NCBI RefSeq assembly: GCF_041146795.1 | Contig: NC_135184.1 | Coordinates: forward strand, 4,482,967-4,546,966 | Reading direction: 5' to 3' | From: Maylandia zebra | Taxonomy: Eukaryota > Chordata > Actinopteri > Cichliformes > Cichlidae | DNA: 64,000 nt | In this document: in pieces, positions 22,883 to 62,528 of the stretch | How the letters are laid out: each line of letters starts with the position of its first letter | Numbering within the stretch: the stretch's first letter is position 1 | The notes under the pieces: model-generated | The model's input: only the letters and a program-made list of their open reading frames with translations | What the model was told of the DNA's origin: nothing | Database searches by the model: none | Made by a program: the position numbers and the translations under genes

Positions 22883-22889
22883 AAGCAAT

Positions 22890-31450: not shown

Positions 31451-31810
31451 AACAAACTGCATCTGTGTTGCTAGTGCAAGACATCAGCACCACACCAAGG
31501 CCTGTGCTGCTCGAAAAGCTTATCTGCAATACATCGGGCGCTGTGCTGTTGATTGAAGCCTTCTACACCACATTGGTGAATGTGCTAGCAGAAGCCCTCT
31601 GCTAGCAAGCCACCAGGACCCGAACTTTTGGCTGGAGCCTTACTTGCCATCCTAGGTTTGTGCAGCCTATTTAATTCAGCATCAACAATCATTGTGTTTT
31701 GGATAATGGCTTTTTTAATAACTTTACTTTGCTTATTGGCCGTGGGGGACTTTTGGACTCTCAATTTTTCTAAGATGAGAACATTTAACAGTGACCCCAT
31801 TCTGTGAGAC

Positions 31811-34800
31811 ATGGTTCCCAGATCTACATGCGTCACTGCTGCTATACATCCTGTACAATTTCCAATGTATTTGGAACAGGACATTAATCATTTTGAACTA
31901 CAGAAAGATTTACCTCATCTTCAAAACCTTCTTGCTTTGTACAATTACAAAATTAGTTACGAAAAATCCTGCTTTGTGTCAACATTTCACACGTCAAAAT
32001 CAATAAGTACAAAGCAGAGACTTCTGATCGTCTTACTACTGCTCTTATCTGGTAATGTGCAACCTAACCCAGGCCCTGAGCTGCAATGTAGCCAGACACC
32101 ATCTGAATTTAAATCCTCACCTGGGCTGAAGATAGTTCATCTTAATGTGCGCAGTTTGTTACCCAAGATGGATATGATCAAGATCTGGGTTCAATCAACA
32201 GATGCAGATATTGTCCTCATTTCTGAAACTTGGTTGTCTAAATATATATCTGATGAACATGTTAGCATGGCTGGCTACAATATCTATCGCACCGATAGGT
32301 TTAAGAAAGGTGGTGGTGTTGCTGCTTATGTTAAGTCAAAATTTGATGCTACAATAGTTCTATCAGAATCAATTTGCAAACAATTGGAATTTTTGGCTCT
32401 GAATGTGAATGTTGCAAAGGGTCTTTGCATAACAGTTGCTTGTTGCTATCGACCCCCTTCTGCCTCCACAGAAGCTCTGCGTTCTTTAAACCTTTTGCTG
32501 TCCAGACTAAATTATGGGGAGCTTGTTCTAGCTGGTGACTTTAACTGGGATTGGCTCAAAACTGTTTCAGATGATTTTAAATCTTTCTGTGATTCTATCA
32601 GTCTTACCCAGCTGGTCAATTTACCCACTCGGCCGAATCTCAAAAGCCCCGAAAAGTCTACCTTGATTGACTTGATTTTGACAAATGTTCCTCATAAATT
32701 TTCATCTTTGGGTGTCTTTTGTAACGACTTAAGTGACCACTGTGTTGTTGCTGCTATTAGAAATACTAAAGTGGCCAAGTCACAACATGGTATTATTTTT
32801 AAAAGAACTCTTAAACATTTTAATGAGCAAGCATTTTATCATGATTTGTCAAATTATGACTGGAAGAAAATAGGATTGATCCCTGATGTAGAATTAGCGT
32901 GGGCATTCTTTAAGGATGGGTTTATGCAAATTGTGAATAAACATGCTCCATTAAGAAGATATAGGATAAAAGGTCGTGAAAACCCCTGGTTCTCCCAAGA
33001 GCTGGCAGATATCATTCATGAGCGTAATCTGGCTTGGGCCAAAGCGAGGAAAACAGGCTACCCCAGTGATTGGCTTCTTTTCAGACAACTAAGAAACAGA
33101 TGTACTTCCTCTATTAAGAAAGCTAAAACAGAATATTATCTGTCTGTCACCACTGAGAACCTAAATAATCCACAGAAGTTCTGGAAAATCATTAAGTCTC
33201 TTTCAGTGAGTAAAAGCTCCCACGCTCTACCCACCTATGTTTTTAAGGATTCTGTTCCTGTTTATGATAGGAAGGAGATTATGAATTGTTTTAACAAGCA
33301 CTTTATATCTTCTGGCTCTTTGTTTGACTCTCTGAACCCAGTCTCTGTAAAATCTGGCACAAACCTTCCGGTGTACACTGGTCAGCCATTTAACTTTGTT
33401 CCTTTCTCTGTGCAGGAGGTCTGTAAAGCTCTTAAACTGTTAGATCCTAGAAAATCTCCAGGGCCAGACTTACTAGATCCTTACTTCTTGAAACTGGCAG
33501 CTGATTTTGTAGCAGAGCCTCTCACAACACTTTTCAACCTCACACTGGATACGAATAAAATTCCCTCAGTATGGAAATCAGCTTTTGTTGTTCCTCTATT
33601 AAAAGGGGGCGACCCAGCAGTGTTAACTAATTACAGACCAATATCTAATCTATCTGTGCTGGCTAAAGTTCTTGAAGCTCTTGTGTGTGAGCAGTTAAAG
33701 GAGTTTTTGCACATCAATGCCATTTTATCTGAATATCAATCAGGCTTTAGGAAGAATCACAGTACTATCACAGCTGCAATTAGAGTGGTAAATGATATTA
33801 CTATTGCACTTGATAAAAAACAACACTGTGCATCCCTTTTTATTGATTTGTCAAAAGCATTTGACACTGTTGATCATTGTATTTTAAAACTTAGACTCTT
33901 CCAGTCAGGACTCTCTGAGAGAGCAGTGGCATGGTTCTCAAACTACCTCAGTAACAGGACTCAGTGCATTAAATCTGACGGTCTATGTTCTGACTTTGTT
34001 ACAGTGCACAACGGAGTGCCACAGGGTTCTGTATTAGGTCCCCTTCTATTTATCATTTACGTAAACAATCTTAGTCTACATGTGCCAGATGCAAACTTGC
34101 ACTTCTATGCTGATGATACAGTTATTTACAGCTGTGGTTCAACTCTTGTCCAAGCCATCGACTCCTTGCAGAAAGCCTTTTCTGCTGTCCAGCACTCATT
34201 ACATCAGCTTAAACTTGTTCTCAACGCAGACAAAACAAAGCTCATGTTGTTTTCTAAATCAAGGAGACGAGCCCAAACAATCCCATCAGTAACCACTCTT
34301 GAAGGTAATAAAATAGAGTTGGTTCACACCTATAAATATCTGGGAATCTTAATTGATGACTTGCTTACCTTCAAACCACATGTAGAGAATCTTGTGAAAA
34401 ACCTGAAGTTAAAACTGAGATTTTATTTTCAAAATAAGTTGTGTTTCTCTTTTAATACAAAGAAGCGGCTTGTTGCTGCAACATTCTTGCCTGTGCTGGA
34501 TTATGGTGATATTCTATATATGAATGCTTCTGCTCAATGTCTTCGAATGGTTGATTCTGTGTATCGTGCTTCTCTGAGGTTCATCACTAACCGTAAATTT
34601 CAGACTCACCACTGTGAGTTATACTCTCAGGTAGGATGGCCTGCTTTGGTAAGTCGGAGGAACTCTCATTTATACAGTTTTATATATAAGGCGATACTTG
34701 GGTTGCTGCCTTCTTATATATGTTCCCTGCTTGTAATGAAACATGCTGGTCGGTATTCTCTTCGTCCGCATGGTTACTTGTTGCTTTCTGTTCCATTTGC

Positions 34801-34912
34801 CCGAACTGAACTTGGTAAAAGAGCTTTTGTCCATTTAGCACCCTTGGCCTGGAACAAACTGCAGAAGGAATGGAAAATGACTGAATTCATTTCATTAAGT
34901 GATTTATTTTAA
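31811..34912 (+). CDS. LINE polyprotein: 2A-like motif, AP endonuclease, reverse transcriptase
   Basis: An intact frame of 1033 residues. After about 70 residues a hydrophobic run leads into LLLLLSGNVQPNPGP (about residues 76-90). This matches the 2A-like ribosome-skipping motifs known in CR1/L2-type elements. The apurinic endonuclease follows (LNVRSLLPK, ISETWL, AGDFNWDW, SDHCVV). The reverse transcriptase has NYRPISNLS, FIDLSKAFDTVDH, GVPQGSVLGPLLF and catalytic YADDT, followed by a CR1/L2-type C-terminal domain. No upstream ORF1 is seen. The product would nick DNA and prime reverse transcription from the 3' tail. All catalytic motifs look present, so it may still be active. Confidence 0.92.
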   Translation: MVPRSTCVTAAIHPVQFPMYLEQDINHFELQKDLPHLQNLLALYNYKISYEKSCFVSTFHTSKSISTKQRLLIVLLLLLSGNVQPNPGPELQCSQTPSEFKSSPGLKIVHLNVRSLLPKMDMIKIWVQSTDADIVLISETWLSKYISDEHVSMAGYNIYRTDRFKKGGGVAAYVKSKFDATIVLSESICKQLEFLALNVNVAKGLCITVACCYRPPSASTEALRSLNLLLSRLNYGELVLAGDFNWDWLKTVSDDFKSFCDSISLTQLVNLPTRPNLKSPEKSTLIDLILTNVPHKFSSLGVFCNDLSDHCVVAAIRNTKVAKSQHGIIFKRTLKHFNEQAFYHDLSNYDWKKIGLIPDVELAWAFFKDGFMQIVNKHAPLRRYRIKGRENPWFSQELADIIHERNLAWAKARKTGYPSDWLLFRQLRNRCTSSIKKAKTEYYLSVTTENLNNPQKFWKIIKSLSVSKSSHALPTYVFKDSVPVYDRKEIMNCFNKHFISSGSLFDSLNPVSVKSGTNLPVYTGQPFNFVPFSVQEVCKALKLLDPRKSPGPDLLDPYFLKLAADFVAEPLTTLFNLTLDTNKIPSVWKSAFVVPLLKGGDPAVLTNYRPISNLSVLAKVLEALVCEQLKEFLHINAILSEYQSGFRKNHSTITAAIRVVNDITIALDKKQHCASLFIDLSKAFDTVDHCILKLRLFQSGLSERAVAWFSNYLSNRTQCIKSDGLCSDFVTVHNGVPQGSVLGPLLFIIYVNNLSLHVPDANLHFYADDTVIYSCGSTLVQAIDSLQKAFSAVQHSLHQLKLVLNADKTKLMLFSKSRRRAQTIPSVTTLEGNKIELVHTYKYLGILIDDLLTFKPHVENLVKNLKLKLRFYFQNKLCFSFNTKKRLVAATFLPVLDYGDILYMNASAQCLRMVDSVYRASLRFITNRKFQTHHCELYSQVGWPALVSRRNSHLYSFIYKAILGLLPSYICSLLVMKHAGRYSLRPHGYLLLSVPFARTELGKRAFVHLAPLAWNKLQKEWKMTEFISLSDLF

Positions 34913-36237: not shown

Positions 36238-36447
36238 CACAGTAAAAAATGGAGTGTCAATATTTCAGTGTAAACCTATTTTAACCTAGAGAGAGTATAT
36301 ACAACTCTGTGAGGAGTAAACCAGCTCTAACGTCAGAGTTAAAAGTCAGTGTAAAGTTCTGTAGACACGGAGTGAAGACATAACTCCACACAGTGTTGAT
36401 TAGTACCAGTCCGCAGGCGTGTGCGGTCTGAGAGCTACCACAGTCAG

Positions 36448-37224
36448 GTAAGTTAAGTTAACATTCCCATACTGGTAACATTGTTTAGTAAGTATTTTTA
36501 AACTAAATAGCTCTTTATAGTTACACTGATGTCGAGTTAGCAGCATTTACCCATAGGTTTAATGATATTGTCGAGTAGCTACATGCTAACCATTGCTAAA
36601 AGTTCAAATGTTCGTTATATTCTCACTGAGTTAAGATTAACCTAAAACATGTTAACTATGTATTTCTTCTAAGTGCAGCTTAGATAATATTATTGTCACA
36701 TGTCTAATGGGATAGTTTTAGCAACTAAATTACCGTTTATTAGTAAGCTAATAATCGCTAATTAGCTTCGAAGGAACTATCAGAAAAAGTGGGTAACATT
36801 ACAATAAAGTTTACTCTACTGATTTATATTCTTTTAAGCAAATGCCAAAGGCTTACACTAATTTAGAATTAATTCAGATTCTTTTATATAAATTAATTGA
36901 CAGCAATGTTAATGATATGTTAATATACAGTAATTGTTCACAGAAATAAAGCGAATTGCAGTAAGAGTGACCAATACTTGATAAGTAGACTAAAGTTATT
37001 AAACAATATTAGATGTTAGTCACACTTGGTCCATTTGCAGTAACACTGGTTGATAAAGGATCTTTATTAGCAGTTAATCTGTTACTTATTTCTTCATGCT
37101 GTAGCTGTTAAGTAATATTGACTTTTAACTGCTTCTATTTTGTATAAAAACTAAAGCTCTAAAGTACATCCACAGTTTTAAACTCTTTCCTTTATTATTT
37201 TTTTCTCTTTTGTTTTGTGAACAG
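36448..37224. other. First intron of the CMC SAMD3-like gene
   Basis: Donor GTAAGT at 36448 and acceptor gtgaacag at 37224 bound about 780 bases with no gene. Confidence 0.5.
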
Positions 37225-37510
37225 AATATGTTGCTGCGTGTTTTGTTTGGTGGGGAGCAGAAGTATGTTAGGCTGTCTGACCTGGGCCCTATTTCAGAAA
37301 GCCGGTTTAGTGCAAACTCTGAGTAAGTATACCCTGAGTTAACGAAAACTCTGGGTTTTCGGTTTCACAAAGCGAGTTCAGATGAATCCTGAGTGAGTCA
37401 CTATGACGACACACTCCGTGAAGCTAACCTGCCCCCTAGCAGGTTTACCACAACTAACCCTGACTGTCTCCGCCTCTTTGTCGGAAACCTGACAGTAGGA
37501 AGTGTCGGAC

Positions 37511-38792
37511 ATGGCGTGCCCCTTCCTTGAAGAGCCAGTAGATGTTGAAGCCCAAATTCTCCGCAGAGCTCTCCGCCGGGAGAGAGTGATCAGAGCGCGT
37601 TTGGACATTTTATCATTTCCTGATGATTTTCTGTGTGAACGTCACCGTTTCTCAGCACAATCTATAATTTATTTGGATAACATCCTCAGGCCATATATTA
37701 CGCATGTGACACATCGCGGACATCCTCTCAGTTCTGTACATATTATTTGTATTGCACTTCGGTTTTTTGCAAACGGGAGCTTTCTGTATAATATTGGTGA
37801 CGCTGAGCACGTTTCCAAGGCTACCGTCTGTCGGGCAGTCAGGAATGTTACAGTTGCACTGAAACGTCTCCTGTACTCGTCTGTGGTGTTCCCCGGTCAT
37901 AGACCCACAAGATTTATCAAAGAGGGATGCCACAAAATTGCAGGTATCAGGATGACCAAAACTTAATTTATGATGTGGTGATACTTGAACTACTACTTAA
38001 ATTTTACATTTATTTTCAGGGTTCCCAGGCGTGATTGGCTGTATAGATGGCACTCACATTCCAATCATTGCTCCTTCAGTAAATGAAGGAGACTATGTGA
38101 ACAGGAAGTCTTTCCACAGCATTAATGTACAGGTACATAGTTCCCTGTAGCATGTCAAACTAACAAATTATTTCATTATAGTAATGGATGCTAATTTGTG
38201 TTCTCTGCACTGTGAAGATCATATGTGATGCTGCCAACATTATCACAAATGTGGAAGCCAAGTGGCCAGGCTCTGTCCATGACTCACAAATATTCCGTGA
38301 ATGTACACTGAGCACAAAATTTGGACATGGTGAGTTGAGAATACTGTAAAATATATAAAGACCAATTGCTACAGGGACATTTGAACTGAAGTGTATCCTT
38401 CTGTCTTAGGAGAGTTCACTGGCTACTTGCTTGGTGATAGGGGGTATCCATGTTTACCCTATTTGCTTACCCCTTACCCTGACCCTGAACCGGGCCCACA
38501 GCAGCGATATAATCTGGCTCATTGCAGGACAAGAGCCAGAATTGAAATGACTATCGGAATGCTTAAGGCCCGGTTCCAGTGCCTGCAAAGACTCAGGGTC
38601 ACCCCAGAAAGGGCATGTGACATTATTGTGGCATGTGTGATTCTTCACAACATTGCCACAATTAGAGGAGAACACTGTCCTTCTGAACCAAACATCAGCA
38701 GTGATCCAAACCATGAACATCCTGACCCTCCCACGGACATACAAGATGGAAGAGCAGTCAGAGACACCATATGTCACAATCATTTCCTTTGA
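37511..38792 (+). CDS. HARBI1-like DDE transposase, Harbinger copy 1
   Basis: Four exons (37511-37943, 38020-38132, 38218-38329, 38410-38792) join in phase to give 346 residues with no stop. The catalytic triad is visible: the first D in GCIDGTH, the second in [11 protein letters not shown], and the E in [16 protein letters not shown] helix-turn-helix-like region precedes it ([23 protein letters not shown]). The nuclease cuts at the element ends but in this family needs the Myb-like partner for nuclear import and DNA binding. The start is the ATG before [10 protein letters not shown]. It looks functional at the sequence level, while the partner gene of this copy is damaged. Confidence 0.9.
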
Positions 38793-39359
38793 CCCATCAT
38801 CTCAACATGTTGAAAGAAGAATAAACAGATTTTTTGTTCAACTGGCTTTATTGGTCGCCTGTATTTCCTGTACACAAAGTATTAAAAGATGTAAACCTCA
38901 TAAAGTGTCTCTGTTGCTTCCTCCTCTGTAACAGCTGTCAATGTTTCTTCATTATTTTCCTGTAGTAAAGAAATAAACAACATTGCTGTTCTACTGTAAA
39001 CTCATATAATCTGTGGAGTATTAAGAGTACTCATAACTGCATGTTGGTCTGGCTCAACAGGAGGCTGCACCAGATGCAGTACACCATCACCATCAACTGA
39101 TAGAATATGAGGTTTATACAGGTCACTTATAACTTACAAGGGACCAAATGGCAATTAACAAACATATACCAATCACCTTACACTTCATTGTCATTATGCT
39201 CTCAAAGACAACCAAGACTGAGGGAAGGCAAAATCAGTAGGAAAATAACTTCACTACAAAATAATCCATTATGGTAAAGAGTTTATCAAATGAATGAGTA
39301 GCACTGCAAAGGTGACTGTGAAGAAAGGATGTATGCACATCATGTATTATTTTGAATTT

Positions 39360-40062
39360 ACCCCCTATGTAGGCACTTGTGTCTTGCGGGGTTACTGACT
39401 CAGAGGATGTCCCCGCAGAGATGCCTTCAGCCACAGGGCGCCCACTGTTTTGGCTGAGGGCCAACTGCTCAGCCTCTGTGAGTGGTGGTGGTGGAGGACC
39501 CCCACCTGTTTTTCGGGCCTCCGCTTTTTTTCTGTTGGCTATAACGGGGTCACATTTGAGCATACAGAGTAAGCAAATATGTACTTGTAATGTGCTCAGA
39601 TAATTTCAATAAGTGCTTACAGAAAGAAAATTAATGTAGCCTCTAACTGCAATTGATTTACATGGGACAAACAGACCAAGCACTGTGGCTCATAATACAA
39701 TTACACCTCACCTGTTTGGACTATATTTTTATATTTCATTTTTACTTGCTGCCAGGAACGTTTGGGGCCTGTTGGGTTGCACCTGCGCTCACATCACGTC
39801 ACAAAATAAAATGTATAAAATAAAAAATAAAATAAAATAACGTGTTAAATGGGTGGAAATCCCTAGATCAATGTTTAAAGTAACACTCACGCATTGACTC
39901 TGTCGGCTATGTTTTGCCATGCATGCTCCCTTTGTTTTGCAGCTGTGGCTGTGTTACTTTTTTCCGCGGAATTTGCATGTTATCGGCATATGCTGCCATC
40001 AGAATTTCGGCCTCAAGCGCTGTAAAATACATTGACCGCGCCTTCTTTCCCTCCGTCTCCAT
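39360..40062 (-). pseudogene. Myb/SANT-like Harbinger partner protein, copy 1 (broken)
   Basis: Exon 1 starts at ATG 40062 with METEGKKARSMYFTALEAEI. Its second half, AKQREHAWQNIADRVNA, lies in another frame, because a T-run (39958-39963) is one base shorter than in copy 2. The following exons read PKRSWQQVKMKYKNI and RKTGGGPPPPPLTEAEQLAL and are open. The C-terminal coiled-coil exon present in copy 2 has been lost. The protein normally binds element ends and recruits the transposase. Confidence 0.75.
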
Positions 40063-40275
40063 GGTGACTCGCTTAATCTGTGCTCCGCTTATCAGGGCTT
40101 TATGTATCCTCGTCCGCGCGCTTCACTTGGGGTTAAAGCAACTCCGCGTTGACTGAACTAATTGTTATCAGCCTTTCTGAAACGGAATATTCCGAGTTGG
40201 ACAGTTCGGGGTTACTCAACCCTGAGTGTCGTTTTTCACTCTGAGTTTTCCAAACCGGCTTCCTGAAACAGGGCC

Positions 40276-40278
40276 CTG
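40276..40278. other. CTG shared between the two Harbinger copies
   Basis: The single CTG serves as right target duplication of copy 1 and left target duplication of copy 2. With CTG at 37282-37284 and 44445-44447 there are three in all, exactly as expected if one copy inserted into the flanking duplication of the other. Confidence 0.85.
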
Positions 40279-40507
40279 GGCCCTATTTCAGAAAGCCGGT
40301 TTAGTGCAAACTCTGAGTAAGTATACCCTGAGTTAACGAAAACTCTGGGTTTTCGGTTTCACAAAGCGAGTTCAGATGAAGCCTCAGTGAGTCACTATGA
40401 CGACACACTCCGTGAAGCTAACCTGCCCCCTAGCAGGTTTACCACAACTAACCCTGACTGTCTCCGCCTCTTTGTCGGAAACCTGACAGTAGGAAGTGTC
40501 GGACATG

Positions 40508-42546
40508 GCGTGCCCCTACCTCGAAGAGCCAGTAGATGTTGAAGCCCAAATTCTCCGCAGAGCTCTCCGCCGGGAGAGAGTGATTAGAGCGCGTTTGGAC
40601 ATTTGATCATTTCCTGATGATTTTCTGTGTGAACGTTACCGTTTTTCAGCACAATCTATAATTCATTTGAATAACATCCTCAGGCCTAATATTGCTCATG
40701 TGACACATCGCGGACATCCTCTCAGTTCTGTACATATTATTTGTATTGCACTTCGTTTTTTTGCAAACGGGAGCTTTCTGTATAATATTGGTGATGCTGA
40801 GCACGTTTCCAAGGCTACCGTCTGTCGGGCAGTCAGGAATGTTACAGTTGCACTGAAACGTCTCGTCAAAGTCAAAGTCAACTTTATTTGTCGATTCTGC
40901 CACATGTACAGGACATATAGAGAATAGAAATTGCGTTACTCTCAATCCCTAGATAAATAGCAAATGAACATTTAAATATATTTAAATATAAAAGTGATTA
41001 AAAATGCAAGTAAAATAATTAAAAAGTAAAAATTTAAATAAATACAATTTTACATATAACAAGAAAGCTATACAATATACAATATAATGGGTAAGTGACA
41101 TTGAGTGTAAACCAGGCAGAGTAGTGCAAATAGGCAAATAGTGCAAATGGAGATTTAGTAATGTACGGTAAGAGAAAGTGTAACAACAAAGTCTTATGAG
41201 GTAATGGCAGTCCAATGCTCCACAAAGTGACTGGTAACTGGTGCAGGCCAGTGAGTGAGTCAGAGAGTGTGTGTGTTTGTGTGTGTGTGACAGAGTTCAG
41301 TGAGACCGTGGAGGAGAGAGGGGGCAGAATCGGGAGGGAGTTAAGCTTCCTGACAGCCTGATGGATGAAGCTGTCCTTCAGCCTGCTGGTCCTGGCCTGG
41401 AGACTCCGCAGTCTCCTCCCCGACGGCAGCAGCTTGAAGAAGCTTTGCATTGGGTGCGTGGGATCAGCCGCTATGCAAAGGGCTTTTTTAGTGAGACGGG
41501 TGCTGTAAATGTCCTGGAGGGAGGGGAGAGAGACACCAATGATCCTCTCTGCAGCTCTCACTATGCGTTGGAGGGTTCTATGACAGGACGCATTGCAGGC
41601 TCCAAACCAGGCTCCTGTACTCGTCTGTACTCGTCTGTGGTGTTCCCCGGTCATAGACCCACAAGATTTATCAAAGAGGGATTCCACAAAATTGCAGGTA
41701 TCAGGATGAACAAAACTCAATTCATGATGTGGTGATACTTGAACTACTACTTAAATTTTACATTTATTTTCAGGGTTCCCAGGCGTGATTGGCTGTATAG
41801 ATGGCACTCACATTCCAATCATTGCTCCTTCAGTAAATGAAGGAGACTATGTGAACAGGAAGTCTTTCCACAGCATTAATGTACAGGTACATAGTTCCCT
41901 GTAGCATTTCAAACTAACAAATTATTTCATTATAGTAATGGATGCTAATTTGTGTTCTCTGCACTGTGAAGATCATATGTGATGCTGCCAACATTATGAC
42001 AAATGTGGAAGCCAAGTGGCCAGGCTCTGTTCATGACTCACGAATTTTTTGTGAATGTACACTGAGCACAAAATTTGGACATGGTGAGTTGAAAATACTT
42101 TAAAATATATAAAGACCAATTGCTACAGGGACATTTGAACTGAAGTGTATCCTTCTGTCTTAGGAGAGTTCACTGGCTACTTGCTTGGTGATAGGGGGTA
42201 TCCATGTTTACCCTATTTGCTTACCCCTTACCCTGACCCTGAACCGGGCCCACAGCAGCGATATAATCTGGCTCATTGCAGGACAAGAGCCAGAGTTGAA
42301 ATGACTATCGGAATGCTTAAGGCCCGGTTCCAGTGCCTTCAAAGACTCAGGGTCACCCCAGAAAGGGCATGTGACATTATTGTGGCATGTGTGATTCTTC
42401 ACAACATTGCCACAATTAGAGGAGAACACTGTCCTTCTGAACCAAACATCAGCAGTGATCCAAACCATGAACATCCTGACCCTCCCACGGACATACAAGA
42501 TGGAAGAGCAGTCAGAGACACCATATGTCACAATCATTTCCTTTGA
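40508..42546 (+). pseudogene. HARBI1-like transposase, copy 2 (broken)
   Basis: Four exons correspond to those of copy 1. Exon 1 begins MACPYLEEPVD, has a TGA at 40604-40606 where copy 1 has TTA, and is split at about 40864 by a LINE fragment. The later exons (about 41774-41886, 41972-42083 and 42164-42546) are open and keep CIDGTH and [15 protein letters not shown]. It cannot give a full protein. Confidence 0.85.
40865..41622 (-). mobile_element. 5'-truncated LINE fragment inside Harbinger copy 2
   Basis: On the minus strand about 110 codons match the C-terminal end of CR1/L2/Rex-type LINE proteins (AADPTHPMQSFFKLLPSGRR, DSFIHQAVRKLNSLP). They are followed by an AT-rich tail ending near gactttgacttt at 40865-40880. 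At the 5' end the host word tactcgtctg is doubled (about 41618-41637), probably an insertion scar. The exact LINE family is not certain. Confidence 0.75.
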
Positions 42547-42689
42547 CCCATCATCTCAACATGTTGAAAGAAGAATAAACAGATTTTTTGTTCAACTGGC
42601 TTTATTGGTCGCCTGTATTTCCTGTACACAAAGTATTAATAAGTATATTATTATGTATAAGTATATAACACTGAAATAATTCGTCCATC

Positions 42690-44231
42690 TCTGACCACTT
42701 CACCCACCCTTAACTGATGTTCTAGCAGTAAAATCTCAATCTTGGTCTTTTGGATCTGCTGCTTGAAGTGTTCCATTTCCAAGTCACATTTTTTTATTTT
42801 CTTGATCAAATGGGTCTTGTACAGCTGCTTTACAGGGAGCTATTGAAACACAGAAAATAGCATTGACATTCATAGTACATGCCTACTTAGGTTGGTTGTA
42901 AATCAGTGCTGAACATCTTACTGAGGAAAGGTTTGTTGGAGACGTGGCTGGACCCTCTTCCTCTTCATTTCCATCATCACTCTGTTAGAGACATAGAAAG
43001 TCCATGGTTTTATTATAGTACCACATTTTATTCAATTGTTATATTTTCCATTGTAAGATGTAAACCTCATAAAGTGTCTCTGTTGCTTCCTCCTCTGTAA
43101 CAGCTGTCAATGTTTCTTCATTATTTTCCTGTAGTAAAGAAATTAACAACATTGCTGTTCTACTGTAAACTCATATAATCTGTGGAGTATTAAGAGTACT
43201 CATAACTGCATGTTGGTCTGGCTCAACAGGAGGCTGCACCAGATGCAGTACACCATCACCATCAACTGATAGAATATGAGGTTTATACAGGTCACTTATA
43301 ACTTACAAGGGACCAAATGGCAATTAACAAACATATACCAATCACCTTACACTTCATTGTCATTATGCTCTCAAAGACAACTAAGACTGAGGGAAGGCAA
43401 AATCAGTAGGAAAATAACTTCACTACAAAATAATTCATTATGGTAAAGAGTTTATCAAATGAATGAGTAGCACTGCAAAGGTGACTGTGAAGAAAGGATG
43501 TATGCACATCATGTATTATTTTGAATTTACCTCTTATGTAGGCACTTGTGTCTTGCGGGGTTATTGACTCAGAGGATGTCCCCGCAGAGATGCCTTCAGC
43601 CACAGGGCGCCCACTGTTTTGGCTGAGGGCCAACTGCTCAGCCTCTGTGAGTGGTGGTGGTGGAGGACCCCCACCTGTTTTTCAGGCCTCTGCTTTTTTT
43701 CTGTTGGCTATAACGGGTCACATTTGAGCATACAGAGTAAGCAAATATGTACTTGTAATGTGCTCAGATAATTTCAATAAGTGCTTACAGAAGGAAAATT
43801 AATGTAGCCTCTAACTGCAATTGATTTACATGGGACAAACAGACCAAGCACTATGGCTCATAATACAATTACACCTTACCTGTTTGGACTATATTTTTAT
43901 ATTTCATTTTTACTTGCTGCCAGGAACGTTTGGGGCCTGTTGGGTTGCACCTGCGCTCACATCACGTCACAAAATAAAATGTATAAAATAAAAAATAAAA
44001 TAAAATAACGTGTTAAATGGGTGGAAATCCCTAGATCAATGTTTAAAGTAACACTCACGCATTGACTCTGTCGGCTATGTTTTGCCATGCATGCTCCCTT
44101 TGTTTTGCAGCTGAGGCTGTGTTACTTTTTTTCCGCAAAATTTGCATGTTATCGGCATATGCTGCCATCAGAATTTCGGCCTCAAGCGCTGTAAAATACA
44201 TTGACCGCGCCTTCTTTCCCTCCGTCTCCAT
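42690..44231 (-). pseudogene. Myb/SANT-like Harbinger partner protein, copy 2 (one nonsense codon)
   Basis: Exons on the minus strand are 44231-44059 (METEGKKARSMYFTALEAEI through AKQREHAWQNIADRVNA, open), 43950-43880 (PTGPKRSWQQVKMKYKNIVQ) and 43707-43531 (PPPPPLTEAEQLALSQNSGR). Then come less certain exons around 43290-43160 and 43130-43040, and a coiled-coil exon about 42830-42690 (EMEHFKQQIQKTKIEILLLE). One TGA replaces CGA in KKAEA-RKTGGG. The family protein is a trihelix-like DNA-binding partner of the transposase. Apart from that codon it looks complete. Confidence 0.7.
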
Positions 44232-47017
44232 GGTGACTCGCTTAATCTGTGCTCCACTAATCAGGGCTTTATGTATCCTCGTGCGCGCGCTTGACTTGGG
44301 GTTAAAGCAACTCCGCGTTGATTGAACTGATTGTTATCAGCCTTTCTGAAACCGAATATTCCGAGTTGGACAGTTCGGGGTTACTCAACCCTGAGTATCG
44401 TTTTTCACTCTGAGTTTTCTAAACCGGCTTCCTGAAATAGGGCCCTGACATTTGATGCTTTCATGAAAGAAGGTTAGAATATCAGGATAAAACAAGATAA
44501 CAACGTTTACCTGGTCAATAAACAAGCTTAATTATATTCTAAGTCAACTACCTAAGTTGATAATTGTTTCTACTTCAACAATGAATGAGAATTACCTATA
44601 TTCTTAAGCTTCATCTCATCAATATTTTGTGAAGACATAGCCTTACTCTACCATTTGATAAGAAAATGCATGGCCTTTTTTTTTTTTTAACAATTTCTGT
44701 AACATTTCTTTTCTCTTACCTTACTTCAGTGTGCCTAAAATTTAACATACCAGAAGGCAGACAGCTAGATATGAAGGTGTTTGACCAGTCTGACACAGAA
44801 GTAGACGCAGAGGTGTTTGAAGAAATAGTGAAGGGGTCACCTGTAACCTTCCGAGTCATGCTGAGCAATGAAGAACTTGGTAATCACTCACATACGTATA
44901 TGTTTATATGAAATTTAAAGGTTGAGATTGAAGCATTAACAGTTAAATTTAATGCTTCTGCTTTGGTCATGTTCCTTAATGCACAGGTGTATCTCTGTCA
45001 TCATCATCTTCTCCATCGGATGATACAATCATTCTAAACTTCACAATGTGTGAACCTCCTGAAGAAGCAGCAACCACTGAAGGAAGACAACCTAAAAGGC
45101 CATGCCATATAAACTATGAGGCAAAAGCTGTGGGTAGTGAACATTGTTAGTCTAATTTGCATGTTTGATGTGAAGTGTTTTTATGTAATCGTTTTCCAGT
45201 TTTTCTCAAGGTTTAAAAAATTTCTGACTTCATATTTTATGTCTATTTAAGTTGATTGAAAAAATCCTAACAACAAAGCCTGGTGGTGAACACATCATAC
45301 AAGAGTATGCAAAAACCAAATCTCTGACAGATGCAACTAGAAGACAGATGATAAACATACTTGCTGCTGAGATGACAGAAGCACATGGGTAAGAATCATA
45401 AATGTAGTCTATAAAGAAACATTTTTAGTATTGTATTATTTTTAATTGTGATGTTCAATGCCAATTGAGTGACGGTCATCACTGAATTTATACATTAGGA
45501 CATCTCCCCCTAAAAGTGTAAGAGTGATGTATGCGCAGGGGATTGTTGCTCTGTTTCCATATCTGGAAGACCCATATTCACAACATGGATATGTAAGTAA
45601 AGGGGACTTTGCAACATTAAACACATAGTTGCCCTCAGAAATGTTGATAACATTCTGCTTGTATTTAATTACATAAGAACATTACTATGATCCAGAGAGC
45701 GGTTCAGGATACCTTGCGTGGCGGTTGAAGACAATTCAAAGAAAAGCTGCAGAGGAAAGAAGTGTCTCACTTTCCAAATCTCCTAAAAGTAAGTTCACTT
45801 GTGATTTAAATGATTCTGATCTAATTTGTAGGCAGGAGTCAATCAAATTGTTTTTTCTTAAGTTGGCGGGCCAGGCCGTGGTCGATCCAGACCACTCACC
45901 ACTGAGACAGTGTTATCAGATGAGGATGTAAAAGCAGCTATTGCTCTTTTGAGACACTCTGCTGATGAAGACACTATCCGTGAAAAGATGAAAGCTACCT
46001 TCATTTATCGGCATTCAATGGTCAGCGATGATAAGAATGCAGCAGATGTCTTCATAGTCTTCCCGCGGTTTCTGGACACACCAGGACTGGTAAGACATCT
46101 TCATTTGTTGAATCACTGAAATATTCCATGCAGCTTGCAATTTCACTCATTACACCTCTTATCTTCTATTTTTGCATTATAGATAGAACAAGATTTCAGA
46201 CTCCTGTTTGATGAGGTCACTGCCAACAAATTCTTGGAGAGGTGGCCCATCGATCTCAAATCAAAGATTGTAAAGGAAAGTCATGGACTTGTACCCACCT
46301 CGGAGCTCTTGGAGTTGATGTGCAATGCTGAGTCAGCTACTGAAGTTGAGAATGGTATGACTGACTGTTTTTATTTGCCATTGTTGGTTATAGAGGCAAT
46401 TCTGTCTATCGAATGTATTTTTGGAGTAATTCTTTGTTTATTCGTCTGTAGGCTGGGACAGTGACATGTCTGCTATCTTGCTGCTGCTACATCTGCTACC
46501 GCCATCTGCACAAGGGTGAAAGAGACCAGGAAAGATGTCTGCATCTCAAGCTGTCGATAACCTCATCAAATTCCTAAAGGTATGTTATTTAAAATATATA
46601 TTCCATCACCGCCATTGTAATGTACAGTAAGGTGATCTAATCTAATGGGATAGTCACTAAATACTGCTGTTTAATGTGTTGTTGTAGGCTGGAACCAGTG
46701 TACAGCAGCATCTAGACAACATCACCCGAAGCAGTCAGCCCTACCTTCTTGCTCAGGGACCCACAAGAAGCAGCATCCACACCTTCTTCATTGTGATTGA
46801 CAAGCATGCACTTCCATGTAAAGCGACAGGTTCAGTAGGAGCCCTTGATGAACTCTTTAAGGCCCATTATGTCTTTGATACGTCATACAGTTCATCCCTG
46901 ACCAACTTTTTCACTTTTCTGCAAACAACCATTTACAACATTGATGTTGGGGAAACAAAGGAAACTCCCAGAGTTGCGAGCAAGAATGGTGCGTTAGTAT
47001 CCATTGAGATCAAAATA

Positions 47018-49838
47018 ATGAAGTGCTTTCTTTGCAAAAGTGATCATGGTAGACCAAACAGCCTTGTAAAACACCTTAAGGTAATTCATGGTCTCTGTAC
47101 TGGGAGGACACTATATCTCAAATGTGGCCAAGTGGGATGCTCACGTTCTTTTAGTAGTTTTTCTGGCTTTAGAAAGCACCTGAACAAATGCCACGTAAGC
47201 AGTTCATTTGATTCTGCAGAACTAGATTTTTCACCAGTTCAAAGTGTTACGGACACAAGTACTACTGCTAATGTTGATGTGGTGCCTGAACATTTAGAGC
47301 ATAGGTGTCAAACTCTGGCCCGCGGGCCAGATTTGGCCCGCAGCCTGATTACATTTGGCCCGCGAAGCCATACCAAATTACTATTAGAGCTGGCCTACTG
47401 GTATTATACAGCTAATATATATATTGTTTAGTATTAAGCTTTGCTTGTTCCATATTCAGGTTTTCAGCAAAACTTGTTTGAGTCCATAAAAAAAGATTCA
47501 TTCTTATATCTAGAGGAAGATTTTTTTTTTCAATAAATATTAATGTTAGCCCGCGACTTTGTTCCAGTTTTGAATTTTGGCCCACTGTGTATTTGAGTTT
47601 GACACCCCTGATTTAGAGGCTGAGTCGGAATTATCTTCAGCAGACCTTGTAAATAGTTGTGCAGCTGTTATTTCTGATCTAAAGGCAGCAGGTGTAGGCC
47701 AAAGTGTAGTGAATTCTGTAGTGAATTCCATGGAAGAGATTGTTCAAGATATCCAACAACATGCTAAAGAAACAGTCATTAAGCATGTATTTAGTAATGA
47801 AAGAGAAACAGAAATGTGCAAGAAAGTTGAAGCATGTTTTGATGAGTTAGAGAATCCTTTCTCAGTTCTTAATTCTGAGTACAAGAGGTCAAAATATTTA
47901 TCAGACAAGTGGGAAACTGTAGAACCAGTTGAATGTGTAATTGGCTCAAGATTTGACACAAGGCGAAATAAAAAGACTGGAACATATGATCAGGCAGTTG
48001 TTCAAGATAAATTCATGTATGTTCCAGTTTTATCAACATTGGAATCAATATTTAAGAGTCAGCATGTTGGAGAAATGTTGAAAAAATCAGACACTTGTGA
48101 TTCAAGACGCAGAGATATTTGTGATGGATCTCTATTGAAGACACGCCCTCTTTTTTTCAACAGAAAAGCACACAGTTCAGATCCAAATGTTCTATGATGA
48201 CTTTGAGGTTGCAAATCCTCTTGGTTCCAAGCGAGGTATTCACAAGTTGGGTGCAGTATATTTTACCTTAAGAAACTTCTCTCCCAAATGGAATTCTTTT
48301 TTGGCCAACATACACCTTTGTGCCTTATTTCATGCACAAGATCTGAAACGTTATGGTTTTAGTGAAATTCTTGTTCCTATTGTTCGAGACATTAAAGTGT
48401 TAGAGAGCGATGGTATTGAGATTCCACTATTCGGTGGTTATGTTCGTGGTAGTGTGGTACAGGTCACTGGTGATAATTTAGGCTTACATAGCTTGTTTGG
48501 TCTGGTGGAGTCTTTCAGTGCAAGGTACTGTTGCAGGTTTTGTTTAGCTGATAAAGATGACTTTCAAACAGAATTCTCTGAAGATTTCCCCCAAAATAGT
48601 GTTGCGCACCAAAGACAACCACACTGCTCACTGTCAGGAAATGTCTAATAATCCATTGCTTCCTTATGTTTTTGGTGTAAAGAGTTCATGCTTATTGAAT
48701 TCACTGACATATTTTCACACAACTGAGAACTTCTCAGTTGATGTGATGCATGATGTTTTGGAAGGAGTGGCCCAGTACAAACTGAAGTTATTGTTTTTGT
48801 ATTTAAAAGAACAACATCTTACATTGGGAGAAGTGAATTTGAGAATACAAAGTTTTGATTATGGATTCATGGAGAAAAACAATAGGCCAGTAGCTGTGAA
48901 TTTAGGTGGAGAGTCTAATGATCTGGGACTGAATGCTATTCAGACATGGTGCTTACTGAGGAATGTTCCCCTCATGTTTGGAGATTTGGTAACCTCTACT
49001 GACCAACATCGGGGCCTACTACTTTTATTACTACAGATAGTTAACATTGTATTTTCTCCTATGTTATCTCAAGGTATGTGTGTATATTTAAAACATTTGA
49101 TTGTGGAACACCACAAACTGTTCAAGATGTTGTATCCCCAGAAAAAACTTTTACCAAAGCACCATTTTCTTATCCATTATCCTCGCTGCATCCAAAAAAT
49201 AGGGCCTGTACTTCATAGTTGGTGCATGCGCTATGAAGGTAAGCACAATTTTTTCAAGAAACTGCTCAAATCATTCAAAAATATCACCAAAACGCTGGCC
49301 AAAAAAACACCAGAATTATATGGCATACATTTGGCAATCTTCAACAACCTTTAGTCGGTTAGACATTGGTCCAGGAAAAATGGTGTCTTTAGATATGGTA
49401 AAAGGAGGTTCTGGAATTGCAATAGCAATGCAACTGCCCAATAGAGTTCAAGTTATGAAAGTGAACTGGGCTAAACAGAATGGTATTGTTTACCGCCCGC
49501 ATTTGGTTATTTGTGGCAAAGTAGTGTCTGAAATGCCTGTGTTTTACCAGATTGAGTCAGTTCTGATAATACATGAGAAACTGGTACTTCTCATTTTGCC
49601 ATTATGTACAGTAGCCTTTCAAGAACATTTCCATGCTTATGAGTTGACCAGGACAAAGCAAGATTTAGTTGTCTTTCATGTTGACAGCCTGCATTATCCC
49701 AGGCCTTTTGACATACAATTGTCGTATGGAGTGAATGACAACTGTCATTACTTACTGTCATTTGTAAGAGTTTGTTATGCTAATAAATGCTGTTACTGTA
49801 ACCTGTATGTTTGTAGTTATTTTCATAATATAGGATAG
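47018..49838 (+). pseudogene. CMC/EnSpm-type zinc-finger DDE transposase (broken)
   Basis: It starts MKCFLCKSDHGRPNSLVKHL with C2H2 fingers (to about 47190), then a linker region. The catalytic part has YDDFEVANPLGSKRG (about 48190), TGDNLGLHSLFGLVESF (about 48466), the CxxC pair CRFC (48532-48543), SVDVMHDVLEGV, HHFLIHYP (about 49160) and RYEGKHNFFKK (about 49228). These suit the D, D, C(2)C, H(4)H and E pattern of the CMC superfamily. Three one-base frame slips all fall in homopolymers (T7 48151-48157, C5 48588-48592, A7 49301-49307), and a 311-base hAT element interrupts the linker. The frame is open upstream into the last SAMD3-like exon. Confidence 0.8.
47300..47610. mobile_element. Small non-autonomous hAT element (MITE)
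   Basis: The ends are CATAGGTGTCAAACTC and, inverted, CAGGGGTGTCAAACTC, with a perfect 8-base duplication ATTTAGAG (47292-47299 and 47611-47618). The inside is rich in ggcccgcg words and AT runs and codes for nothing. This is the common vertebrate CAGGGGTGTCAAACTC-type hAT family. It splits the CMC transposase. Confidence 0.9.
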
Positions 49839-50166
49839 ATCACAGCCATTTAGAAATATAGCATCATATGATAAATATGAAAAAATAATGAAAATGAAAT
49901 ATTATTACACATTAGAGTGAACTTGGACTAAAAATAACTCTATAAAGTGAAATCATATTACTCTAAACAGTGTGAATAACCCTCAGTGTTAAATATTTTT
50001 ACACATTTTGTTGTTAATTTTGACACTAAACTGAGTAGAATTAACACTAAAAAGTTAACACTGGCCATAGAGTAAATTTTACCCTAATTTTGAGTGGGAC
50101 CAAATGTTATCTGAAACAGAGTTAAAATCAACTCTCTAAGTGTAAAATTGACAGTTTTTTACTGTG
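49839..50166. repeat. Right terminal region of the CMC element
   Basis: AT-rich, with repeated motifs such as tagtgttaa, aacactaaaa and agtgtaaaattgac. Similar words in inverse orientation occupy 36240-36380 at the left end. The terminal word is ttttttactgtg. Confidence 0.7.
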
Positions 50167-51157: not shown

Positions 51158-51624
51158 CAGCGTTAACCCCGCCCCCTGAGTTTGATGGGTGAGGCTGACA
51201 GATAAAATTATTTCAAGATGAGAGCCAGGCGCCAGGACTGCCAAAATGAAATAAATAAATATATCATTAAATAATTAAATGTGTCAATAATTAATTAATT
51301 AAATGTGTGTTGGCCCTGCGACAGACTGGCGACCTGTCCAGGGTGTACCCCGCCTCTCGCCCTATGACAGCTGGGATAGGCTCCAGCGCCCCCCGCGACC
51401 CTGAAAAGGATAAGCGGAAGCGGATGGATGGATGGATGGAATAATTAATTAAAATGTGAAATACATAAATAATTAATTAAACGTGTCAATAATTAATTAA
51501 TTACATGTGTCATAACTATTTATTTAATTAATTAATTCCAATTTTAATTAATTATTGCCACATTTAATTCATTATTTAATGGTGTATTTAATTAATTCAT
51601 TATGGCAGTCCTGGCGCTCCATAG
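51158..51624 (-). repeat. Right inverted repeat of the outer element
   Basis: The reverse complement of 35300-35636 with scattered differences, split by the retroposon at 51309-51440. It ends ggcgctccatag. Confidence 0.8.
51309..51440 (+). mobile_element. Retroposon 3' fragment with a GGAT tail
   Basis: This contains gcgacagactggcgacctgt, gggataggctccagcgcccc and a (GGAT)n tail. It is the very common fish non-LTR 3' end, probably a 5'-truncated copy. It lies within the right inverted repeat, so it inserted after the outer element was complete. Confidence 0.8.
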
Positions 51625-51756
51625 GCACCAGCGCCAGAGGTGAGGTTGAATACAAAGACTGTCCTCTGGACACCGTATAACATGGCCGATCCCAAGGCCC
51701 TATATGTATGTGTTATGAGAGTGTGAGTAATGTGGATGTCTAGGTTGTGGAATAAA

Positions 51757-51826
51757 ATCAGTCTGCTGATAAAACAGTGAGCACAGTGAGAAGATCTTCA
51801 CTGAGCTGATCCATCTCATCTCATAA
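51757..51826 (+). pseudogene. TRIM coiled-coil fragment upstream of TRIM gene C
   Basis: The copy of the fragment at 528-597, in the same position relative to the TRIM gene. Confidence 0.8.
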
Positions 51827-52193
51827 AATTGAGGCACAGGTGACCAGGAGGGGACAGAGGGGGAACGACCTTTTATTGCTTTTTTCTACAACAATTTCTT
51901 AGTTCAGCTGCAGTATTTGATATCCTGTAATGACTAAAATGATAATTTAAACTAATTTACATAAAAAGATTGTCTTTTAAATGTTAAGGTTATTTAACAA
52001 CTTTAAAGGCTGAGCAGTGCTATTTTTAAATGAAAAACTCACAGGCTCACATGTTCCAGGATTGAATTAGTGTCTGATAACCCTCCCTCTTCCTGCTCTC
52101 TAACTCAGCACCTCCTCTCTGTCCACATGTTCCCTTGTTCCCTCCCCTTCTGATCTGCAGTTTGAAGATGGGTGCAACCAACATGTGGTGACG

Positions 52194-52275
52194 TATAAGA
52201 GCTGACAGATCCCATTCGCTACAGAAACCTATGTTGTTTAGATCAGAGCAGTTTCAGTTCTGAGGAAGTGAAACT
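52194..52275 (+). promoter_or_regulatory. Putative TATA and paired IRF-type motifs of TRIM C
   Basis: TATAAG at 52194-52199, AGTTTC at 52250-52255 and GGAAGTGAAACT at 52264-52275, as in TRIM A. Confidence 0.5.
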
Positions 52276-52303
52276 CACACAGTCACTGACACTGTTGGGT
52301 GAA

Positions 52304-53974
52304 ATGGCGCAGAAAAGTGTTCAGCTGGACCGAGAAACCTTCTCTTGTTCGATCTGTTTGGATCTACTGAAGAATCCGGTGGCTCTTCCCTGTGGACACA
52401 GCTACTGCATGAACTGTATTGAAAGCTTCTGGGATGAAGAGGAAAAGAAGAAAATCTACAGCTGCCCTCAGTGCCGGAGGACTTTCACAGCGAGGCCTGT
52501 CCTGGAGAAAAACACCATGTTAGCAGTTTTAGTGGAGGAGCTGAAGAAGACTGGACTCCAAGCTGCTCCTGCTGATCACTGCTATGCTGGACCTGAAGAT
52601 GTGGCCTGTGATGTCTGCACTGGAAGAAAAATGAAAGCCTTCAAGTCCTGTTTAGTCTGTCTGGCATCTTACTGTGAGAAACACCTTCAGACTCATAATA
52701 TTGTTGCAGTTTCATTCAAGAAACACAAGCTGGTGGAGCCCTCCAAGAAGCTCCAGGAGAAGATCTGCTCTCGTCATGATGAGGTGATGAAGATGTTCTG
52801 CCGTACTGATCAGCAGAGTATCTGTTATCTCTGCTCTGTGGATGAACATAAAGGCCACGACACAGTCTCAGCTGCAGCAGAAAGGACTGAGAGGCAGAGA
52901 GAGCTGGAGGTGAGTGGACAAAACATCCAGCAGAGAATCCAGGACAGAGAGAAAGATGTGAAGCTGCTTCAACAGGAGGTGGAGGCCATCAATCAGTCTG
53001 CTGATCAAACAGTGGAGCACAGTGAGAAGATCTTCACTGAGCTGATCCATCTCATCCAGAAAAGAAGCTCTGATGTGAAGCAGCAGATCAGATCCCAGCA
53101 GGAAACTGAAGTGAGTCGAGTCAAAGAGCTTCAGGAGAAGCTGGAGCAGGAGATCACTGAGCTGAAGAGGAAAGATGCTGAGCTGAAGCAGCTCTCACAC
53201 ACAGAGGATCACATCCAGTTTCTACACAACTACCCCTCACTGTCAGCACTCAGTGAGTCTACAGACTCATCCAGCATCAATATCCGTCCTCTGAGCTACT
53301 TTGAGGATGTGACAGCAGCTGTGTCAGAGGTCAGAGATAAACTACAGGACATTCTGAGAGAGGAACGGACAAACATCTCACTGACAGTCACTGAAGTGGA
53401 TGTTTCACTGTCACAACCAGAGCCAAAGACCAGAGCTGGATTCTTAAAATATTCATGTGAAATCACACTGGATCCAAACACAGCAAACACACAGCTGTTA
53501 TTATCAGAGGGGAACAGAAAAGCAACATTTATGGAACAACAACAGTCTTATTCTGATCATCCAGACAGATTCACTGTATGGTGGCAGGTCCTGAGTAGAG
53601 AGAGTCTGACTGGACGTTGTTACTGGGAGGTGGAGTGGAGAGGGGAAGGAGTTTATGTAGCAGTCGCATACAAGAATATCAGCAGAAAAGGAGATGATGA
53701 ATGTGGATTTGGATGTAATGACAAATCTTGGTCATTAGATTGTATCAACAACAGTTTTACATTTCGGTACAACAACATTGAAACTCGTGTCTCAGGTCCT
53801 CGTTCCTCCAGAGTAGGAGTGTACCTGGATCACAGAGCAGGTATTTTGTCCTTCTACAGCGTCTCTGAAACCATGACTCTCCTCCACAGAGTCCAGACCA
53901 CATTCACTCAGCCGCTCTATGCTGGACTGAGTCTTTATTATGGAGTCACTGCTGAGTTGATTAAAGTGAAATAG
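52304..53974 (+). CDS. TRIM16-like/finTRIM E3 ubiquitin ligase, copy C
   Basis: An intact single-exon frame of 556 residues: RING, two B-boxes, coiled coil and PRY-SPRY. It differs from copy A at scattered RING and B-box positions (PVALPCG, CRRTFTARPVLEK, LQTHNIVAVSFKKH). It differs more densely in the B30.2 loops: ANTQLL, RFTVWWQVL, RKGDDECGFGC, DCINNSFTFRY and SLYYGVTA, where a short deletion makes the last loop two residues shorter than in A. The coiled coil and the 3' flank are nearly identical to A and B. The start ATG at 52304 has the same context as in A. Likely a cytosolic ligase with its own target recognition. Confidence 0.92.
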   Translation: MAQKSVQLDRETFSCSICLDLLKNPVALPCGHSYCMNCIESFWDEEEKKKIYSCPQCRRTFTARPVLEKNTMLAVLVEELKKTGLQAAPADHCYAGPEDVACDVCTGRKMKAFKSCLVCLASYCEKHLQTHNIVAVSFKKHKLVEPSKKLQEKICSRHDEVMKMFCRTDQQSICYLCSVDEHKGHDTVSAAAERTERQRELEVSGQNIQQRIQDREKDVKLLQQEVEAINQSADQTVEHSEKIFTELIHLIQKRSSDVKQQIRSQQETEVSRVKELQEKLEQEITELKRKDAELKQLSHTEDHIQFLHNYPSLSALSESTDSSSINIRPLSYFEDVTAAVSEVRDKLQDILREERTNISLTVTEVDVSLSQPEPKTRAGFLKYSCEITLDPNTANTQLLLSEGNRKATFMEQQQSYSDHPDRFTVWWQVLSRESLTGRCYWEVEWRGEGVYVAVAYKNISRKGDDECGFGCNDKSWSLDCINNSFTFRYNNIETRVSGPRSSRVGVYLDHRAGILSFYSVSETMTLLHRVQTTFTQPLYAGLSLYYGVTAELIKVK

Positions 53975-55560
53975 ACTGAAGTCTTTCATATTGTTGTAAG
54001 TTTAAATCTGTATTTTAGTTCCCTTTTAGTTTCTCTCCATCATTATTGTGGTATTTATGTGCTGCACATAAATCAGATGTCAGCCAAACATTATGGGCAG
54101 TACCTCGACATCTTCAACATGTTGTCTTGATGTTTTTACGTTTTATAGGTGGAGCTCTTTCCTGTGTCTGTTCAGCCATGGAGACTATCAATGCTTATGG
54201 ATATTTTTATTTGAAAAATTTCTCCACATGACAACATAAACTTCTCTATCTTCTAAATGTTTACTGAATATTTTTCTTAGGTATTTGTATGTTGTTGTTT
54301 CTCTTCACTGATCTTAACAGAGAAGTCTACAGACCTTCCTTTATCACACAGATTTTATTCTCATTTGTACATTTATAAAGAAAACAATTAATTACAGAGC
54401 AATAAGAAATTTTAAGAAAGTGCACTATATCATAATTTATAGTAAAGTGTATTAAAGCATCGTTAGTTAGTCACTTATTTAGTTTGGAGCTGTATCATCT
54501 GACACTGTAGAAACATTTCCTCCAGCTTCAGCACAGAATGTTAAAAACAGAACTATTAATGAGAACAAACAGTAGGAACACAGTATCAGCAAACATCATG
54601 GCTTAAAATGGAGAGTAAAAATCTAAAAAGAAATAAACAAATTAGTAAAAAGGATTTCCTGTTGACATGTTATTGGTCCTATCTTGTCTGCAGCACCTCC
54701 AGGATGCTTCTTATATGTTTCTGGTTATTTTTGCACCAATTTTAGTTTTTGTCAATAGGAAGTTCAAGTTCAACTCAGTGTGTTTGTTTGTTTTTTTCAA
54801 ACTGATGCCTGACCTTGAACACCAAACATCTGTCAATAAAGCAATGATATAAAATGCTTATATTAGTACTGAAAAACTGCATATCCACTTTACAAATATA
54901 AATAATGATATAAATCCACAGCTGAACTGGAGGAGCAGCTGATCTAGTTCACTCATGTGTTTCTGGACTAAGAGTTGGAGCAAATACCTTATGATTCAGT
55001 GATGTTTGTTTTTGTTAAATATTTTGTAGATCCAAGAGTGAGTTTGACTCATGATGATGATGTTCCGAATTAAACAAAGTTGGTCACAAATTCTTCAAAG
55101 CTGTTTATTAAGAATATATTCACTTGGACTCATGAGACAGGCTTGTGATCCAAGGGAGCCATCAACTGGACAATTACTGACATGACAACAAAAAAGCTAA
55201 GTACAGAGGGGGGAACAGAGGTGAAAATACTTGCTTTAAAGGATTGTAATGTTTCCTTTTAAAATAAGTCTCTAAGGTCAGACAAAGGGACAGAAACTCA
55301 TAGCTTTCTACCAGCCCAATGACAAAACTATAAGTTGTTTTTTAACATCTACTTTTTCATCTATTTGGCAGTCACAGTGAAAAGTATAAACATTGGCACG
55401 CTTTGTCTTGTGATTCTGCTGTTCGTAAAAAATGACCATGCGCAAAGTACCAGACTTTAAGGCTTTGACTTGATGCCAATGGCCTGAGGAGGACAGTATT
55501 ACCCTTGGACATGTGTAGTCTGCCGTCTACTCAATAGAAGAAGAAGAAGCGCGGAAATGG
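53975..55560. other. TRIM C 3' flank and intergenic region
   Basis: Matches 2749-4340 with very few changes. The AATAAA at 54835-54840 corresponds to the poly(A) signal of copy A. No gene is seen. Confidence 0.6.
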
Positions 55561-55568
55561 CACAACTG

Positions 55569-55727
55569 TCTTCAGTTTCTGGGAGAGTTTAACAATGAGA
55601 GACTGATGATGCAGAAGAAATCTCCGTGGTTAAAAACATTAAAAACAGTCGTCCAGGATGATGAGATCCGCCACTGGCTCAGACTGCTGTATATCAGCCG
55701 GAGACCCGAGATGAAGTCACGCAGCAG
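55569..55727 (+). pseudogene. Zinc-finger gene C, degenerate first exon
   Basis: Same as 4343-4501, with the same lost start and phase mismatch. Confidence 0.6.
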
Positions 55728-62486: not shown

Positions 62487-62528
62487 GCATAGACTTTGCT
62501 TTGCATTGTTTGTTATTTTATATAGGTA

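Follow-up and report, generated by a model that had tools for sequence, protein, structure and literature searches.

Background

Plant CACTA transposons carry subterminal repeats, and maize Spm, a CACTA/EnSpm element, combines CAC..GTG ends with one transcription unit from which both a transposase (TNPD) and a second protein (TNPA) are made. The features that define CMC/CMCT transposons (EnSpm branch) are 5′-CA(C)..(G)TG-3′ termini (PMC12730594), target duplications of 2–5 bp (3 bp in EnSpm), C(2)C and H(3–4)H motifs lying between the second catalytic D and the last E, a Transposase_21 domain, and an RNase H-like fold. Here, we analyzed a 64-kb window (the whole stretch of DNA under study, to which all positions refer) of the cichlid Maylandia zebra (NC_135184.1) and describe within it a 13.9-kb element (36238–50166) that is likely a decayed CMC-like (CACTA/EnSpm-like) teleost transposon, in which a single transcription unit would hold a SAMD3-like accessory gene (gene 1) and a zinc-finger DDE transposase.

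This locus resembles Spm in its CAC..GTG ends and, as we read it, in a transcription unit that would yield a transposase and a second protein, and repeats are found at both of its ends. It differs from Spm in that its second protein is SAMD3-like and is encoded upstream, in many exons, and in that neither a Transposase_21 profile match nor a 3-bp target duplication was seen. Published animal elements of the CACTA type include some whose duplications are 2 bp long and whose reading frames lie in tandem. Among these TRC elements, SmTRC1 has 2-bp direct repeats at 7 of 14 copies and yields several products by splicing, and its frames are in tandem, an arrangement reported for Spm TnpD as well; unlike the fish element, SmTRC1 has ends that start with CCC and a Transposase_21 domain, and the available part of that report mentions no SAMD3-like protein (PMC1636069). 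Finally, fungal TET/JBP-carrying EnSpm transposons resemble the fish element in having an extra protein gene and a C(2)C motif between the second catalytic D and the E, whereas they reside in fungal hosts, their extra gene is a dioxygenase, and their duplications are of 3 bp (PMC12730594).

Results

The termini of the element, an inverted pair of CACAGTAAAAAA, have the CA(C)..(G)TG form of CMC transposons. The window contains no other exact copy; shuffles gave an expectation of 0.02, and none of 100 reached two, which bears out the end pair proposed in an earlier, sequence-only reading of this stretch. Only the exact pair was counted because the motif becomes common once up to two mismatches are allowed (39 matches in the window). 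The left and right ends share their first 12 bases but very little of what follows, and the interior of the element holds no additional end repeat at 0 or 1 mismatch. Further, both ends are rich in short repeats: AGWGTNNA, a motif picked by eye from the two ends, has 6 copies at the left and 10 at the right (0.35 expected per end, both strands), while ACACTG, selected on the left end after both ends had been viewed together, occurs 3 times in the right 255 bases and at most twice in each of 2508 overlapping windows elsewhere, these comparison windows being unmatched for composition.

Between these ends, gene 1 reads as a multi-exon gene on the + strand (Table 1). Nine exons (44730–46985) join to 487 codons with one stop (TGA 46517); the other two frames have 33 and 39, and 2000 shuffles a mean of 27.9 (minimum 9). 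This open frame is partly by construction because exon borders were chosen to preserve it. All nine acceptors of exons 2–10 are AG and all eight donors of exons 2–9 are GT; for exon 5, the donor at 45593 was dropped, as only the next GT preserves the frame. Upstream, CAGGTAAGT occurs a single time in the window on either strand, at 36445, ~200 bp inside the left end, and a candidate acceptor (..GTGAACAG) stands immediately before 37225, a combination that suggests a leader exon within the transposon's end. A splice donor at this place makes gene 1 look like a component of the transposon's own transcription unit.

The second gene begins within the first. In the last exon of gene 1, the frame neighbouring its own ends in ..LPELRARMVR and a TAG (46995–46997), and the transposase ATG (47018) follows 20 bases later. 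Two C2H2 zinc fingers (47024 and 47123) open the transposase frame, and the catalytic order, assigned by eye, is D (48196), D (48472, 92 residues on), CRFC (48532), HTAH (48620), and HDVLEG with the E at ~48761; CRFC thus supplies a C(2)C motif between the second D and the last E, as those two residues were placed by eye. Gene 1's own frame runs without a stop from exon 10 through both zinc fingers (46688–47431, 247 residues). With a transposase start in gene 1's last exon and a putative leader exon at the left end, the transposase would seem to rely on the gene 1 transcript for its expression. The shared last exon, the left-end splice donor, the repeats clustered at both ends, and the interior free of extra end repeats together support the proposed membership of gene 1 in the transposon, of which we consider it probably an integral part.

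Table 1 Features of the Maylandia zebra element, in window positions
Feature	Position	Strand	Remarks
Left terminal inverted repeat, CACAGTAAAAAA	36238–36249	+	Exact, one of two in the window; ..GTGCTG precedes
Left subterminal region; inferred promoter and 5′ untranslated exon	36250–36460	+	AGWGTNNA-type repeats (6)
Splice donor CAG/GTAAGT of putative non-coding first exon	36445–36453	+	Only CAGGTAAGT in the window
Gene 1 exon 1a, MLLRVLFGGEQKYVRLSDL	37228–37284	+	ATG 37228; interrupted by nested Harbinger pair
Nested insertion, two tandem Harbinger elements	37285–44444	+	CTG flanking and joining; self-comparison, DDE_Tnp_4 match
Gene 1 exon 1b, TFDAFMKE	44448–44472	+	Frame resumes past insertion; donor GTTAG
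Gene 1 exon 2, end of ubiquitin-like-looking region	44730–44879	+	AG/GT borders
Gene 1 exon 3	44987–45129	+	AG/GT borders, frame kept
Gene 1 exon 4	45252–45388	+	AG/GT borders, frame kept
Gene 1 exon 5	45499–45596	+	AG/GT borders, frame kept
Gene 1 exon 6	45678–45788	+	AG/GT borders, frame kept
Gene 1 exon 7	45863–46089	+	AG/GT borders, frame kept
Gene 1 exon 8	46183–46354	+	AG/GT borders, frame kept
Gene 1 exon 9	46452–46579	+	In-frame TGA 46517–46519
Gene 1, part of exon 10	46688–46997	+	AG acceptor; own frame continues into transposase
Transposase gene, broken	47018–49838	+	Zinc fingers; D, D, CRFC, and E by eye (positions in text)
Nested element	47300–47610		ATTTAGAG on both sides, 8-bp duplications
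AATAAA	49782–49787	+	Only AATAAA/ATTAAA in 49501–50166; inside last 60 bases of broken final frame
Right subterminal region	49900–50154	-	ACACTG (3), AGWGTNNA (10)
Right terminal inverted repeat	50155–50166	-	Exact; then TGGCC

This copy of the element is dead: gene 1 is broken by the in-frame TGA of exon 9 and the transposase by at least three frame changes, and neither protein can be made intact. Foreign DNA makes up approximately 7.2 kb of the 13.9-kb element, as a pair of Harbinger elements sits inside coding exon 1 of gene 1. The sequence-only reading had missed both this nested pair and the breaks in the two genes. The two Harbinger copies are 97.3–98.4% identical in self-comparison, and the first, the sole copy scanned, matches DDE_Tnp_4 (E 1.6e-15). 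The second carries a 760-bp fragment (~40865–41624) that by eye resembles a long interspersed nuclear element (LINE), and an extra 0.4 kb (~42644–43054) lacking in the first. The tandem shares a single CTG junction, as if one had inserted at the target duplication of the other. A further nested element, within the transposase, is presumably hAT-like, judging by its ends.

The SAMD3-like identity of gene 1 is our working assumption, as gene 1 was compared solely with a human SAMD3 sequence that did not come from a database record. Against this single subject, the two are co-linear over 357 residues of gene 1 (390 columns) at 22% identity, with a blastp E of 9e-6 and a local score of 102 (mean 37.7, maximum 68 in 300 shuffles), and phmmer singles out just the C-terminal 72 residues. 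We take this weak, co-linear similarity as a lead, not a test. Gene 1 differs from human SAMD3 in that Pfam listed no SAM domain model, either for gene 1 or for the N-terminal portion, its N-terminus instead looking ubiquitin-like by eye, since DTEVDAEVFEEIV, at the start of gene 1, shows the order expected of such a fold. A structure model of exon 2 gave a strand-helix-strand arrangement (mean predicted local distance difference test score, pLDDT, of 70), which is compatible with this proposal for a fragment that is without the first part of the domain. A fold search with the same fragment gave no match, Pfam listed neither CIDE-N nor PB1 for the N-terminus, and a PDB sequence search with it returned weak, unrelated matches only. 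Hence, the putative ubiquitin-like start of gene 1 has a compatible predicted arrangement and no profile or fold match in its support. What stands of the proposed pairing of a SAMD3-like gene with a zinc-finger DDE transposase on one strand is the multi-exon gene and the C2H2/DDE-type second gene, with the SAMD3 name coming from the comparison with that one human sequence.

Several further features lie around the element. A 12.4-kb direct duplication (395–12758 and 51624–64000, 98.9% identity) flanks the region; it excludes the element and hence offers no empty site. A 2.2-kb part of this duplication (4332–6496) has a third copy at 20720–22883 (99.5%). Three TRIM-like genes of one family (970–2748, 16393–18177, and 52199–53974) resemble the TRIM arrays of teleosts in arrangement; scanning, which covered the first of them, gave RING, B-box, TRIM coiled coil, PRY, and SPRY, the second is ~95% like the first at the DNA level, and the third lies within the 98.9% duplication. 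A retroelement at 11797–15870 has integrase domains (12995–14764) ahead of a frame (14677–15870) that is reverse transcriptase-like by eye, an unusual order that we take to be that of Gmr1-type Ty3/gypsy elements. In addition, a LINE frame (31808–34912) of 1034 codons contains endonuclease and reverse transcriptase domains and no stop, and a 174-codon open frame on the - strand occurs three times in duplicated units (5256–5780, 21642–22166, and 56482–57006), its first copy, the sole one scanned, having no Pfam match.

Discussion

We favor the CMC-like reading because its parts can be seen at the locus itself, namely inverted ends, repeats at both ends, a legally spliceable open frame, and two genes that follow each other on one strand and meet within one exon. 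How such an element would work can be outlined, partly by analogy. Transcription would start at the left end, and splicing would join a short leader exon to the ~ten coding exons of gene 1, which would be translated from the spliced first frame. The transposase would come from the same pre-mRNA, either from a second frame or through an alternative splice form, in line with reports on the tandem frames of Spm and SmTRC1, and would cut at the CAC..GTG ends, while gene 1 may help assemble these ends in place of plant TNPA, perhaps multimerizing via its putative ubiquitin-like N-terminus.

Several observations weigh against this interpretation. First, in the transposase, the histidine motif HTAH is H(2)H rather than H(3–4)H and adjoins a frame change. 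Searched against Pfam, three transposase pieces had no match at E up to 10, a fourth drew weak, unrelated models that stayed below the cut-off (best E 0.008), and the stretch with the zinc fingers drew sub-threshold zinc-finger models only. Transposase_21 (PF02992) was absent from the matches of three pieces at E up to 10 and from those of five at E up to 1, all being pieces cut by frame changes, and a single-sequence structure model of the transposase (mean pLDDT 42) was too weak for a search for the RNase H-like fold. Second, gene 1 had no Pfam match at E up to 10, its N-terminal pieces gave weak, unrelated models only (best E 0.14), its splicing is predicted from borders fitted to the frame, and the role proposed for it is read, by analogy, from its position. 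As gene 1 and the zinc fingers share one open frame here, the existence of two separate proteins is likewise a prediction. Overall, no credible relative was found in Pfam, PDB, IMG/VR, or GTDB, the latter two consisting of viral and prokaryotic records in which fish genomes are not expected. Third, the flanks (..GTGCTG/CACAG at the left, CTGTG/TGGCC at the right) show no 3-bp target duplication (CTG vs TGG) and match over just 2 bp (TG/TG), for which the chance is ~1/16; and the element is present once, with no second copy in the window.

The CMC type initially claimed has the terminal sequences and the C(2)C motif in its favor, and neither a Pfam match nor a 3-bp target duplication. Given the missing Pfam match and the imperfect histidine motif, we call the element a CMC-like two-gene transposon on the strength of its sequence features, rather than a proven EnSpm member, and claim no strict EnSpm membership. 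A KDZ/Zisupton transposase was considered and dropped, as Zisupton makes 8-bp duplications and none are present at the element's flanks.

The strongest of the alternatives, still an unlikely one, is that a single transposon lineage picked up a host SAMD3-like gene, which would then be cargo with no role in transposition. The numerous introns of gene 1 are what one would expect after capture from a host, just one copy of the element is seen here, and Samd3 is treated as a host gene elsewhere: a parrotfish sex-marker paper has samd3 as an ordinary gene beside elf3 (PMC11258905), and a carp bone-trait association has it as a candidate (PMC8945855), so that some SAMD3 genes of fish, at the least, pass for host genes. 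Capture as mere cargo sits poorly with a transposase that starts in gene 1's last exon and with the apparent leader exon in the left end; of the evidence against a passenger, and also against a chance neighbourhood, this shared exon and the splice donor in the left end carry the greatest weight. Moreover, a second case could exist in the pufferfish Diodon holocanthus, in which the scaffold GU002139 of a bacterial artificial chromosome (BAC) is listed as 'similar to sterile alpha motif domain containing 3; similar to zinc finger protein' (PMC2996927). This scaffold is one of 49, from a BAC that was one of ten chosen at random, and the table of that paper states neither map order nor the kind of zinc-finger gene; we regard the listing as a lead, the single one from outside this window, for the pairing elsewhere.

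A variant of the preferred reading, rather than its opposite, would make gene 1 and the transposase one fused polyprotein with a SAMD3-like N-terminal region. The stop-free run from exon 10 through both zinc fingers argues for such a protein, and the neighbouring frame, with its ..LPELRARMVR and stop ahead of the zinc-finger ATG, argues against it. Fish SAMD3-like proteins presumably have a comparable end, in which case the fusion would be no more than a minor alteration of the present copy, and we accord the polyprotein a low probability.

Finally, that a host gene merely lies beside a decayed transposon, with ends from different elements, is very improbable: nested transposons do abound in the window and the ends match over 12 bases only, but two exact inverted 12-mers far exceed expectation, repeats are common to both ends with no extra end repeat between them, and the two genes share an exon.

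Elsewhere in the literature, a carp-goldfish (transparent-mutant) expression table contains two SAMD3-like genes (PMC6771007), SAMD3 is merely a table entry in the available part of PMC10298005, and PMC3647546, PMC8389408, PMC10706053, and PMC11346364 deal, as far as their available parts go, with other genes of similar name. No publication linking SAMD3 with transposons or EnSpm was found, nor was anything on transposons in the literature on SAMD3 in fish and T cells, among records that were mostly titles and the beginnings of abstracts, so that absence from print is not established.

Conclusions

If the CMC-like two-gene reading of this one copy is right, some fish "SAMD3-like" genes would be parts of transposons. 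A bolder extension, which we hold tentatively and doubt more than we believe, is that vertebrate SAMD3 descends from the accessory protein of a CMC-like transposon, with a SAM domain replacing the ubiquitin-like N-terminus, and that most fish SAMD3-like genes are live or dead transposon genes. Should the pairing recur, fish Samd3 and SAMD3-like genes would have to be divided between hosts and transposons, a defined partner protein with a testable role would be added to animal CMC transposons, and SAMD3 would become a candidate domesticated transposon gene.

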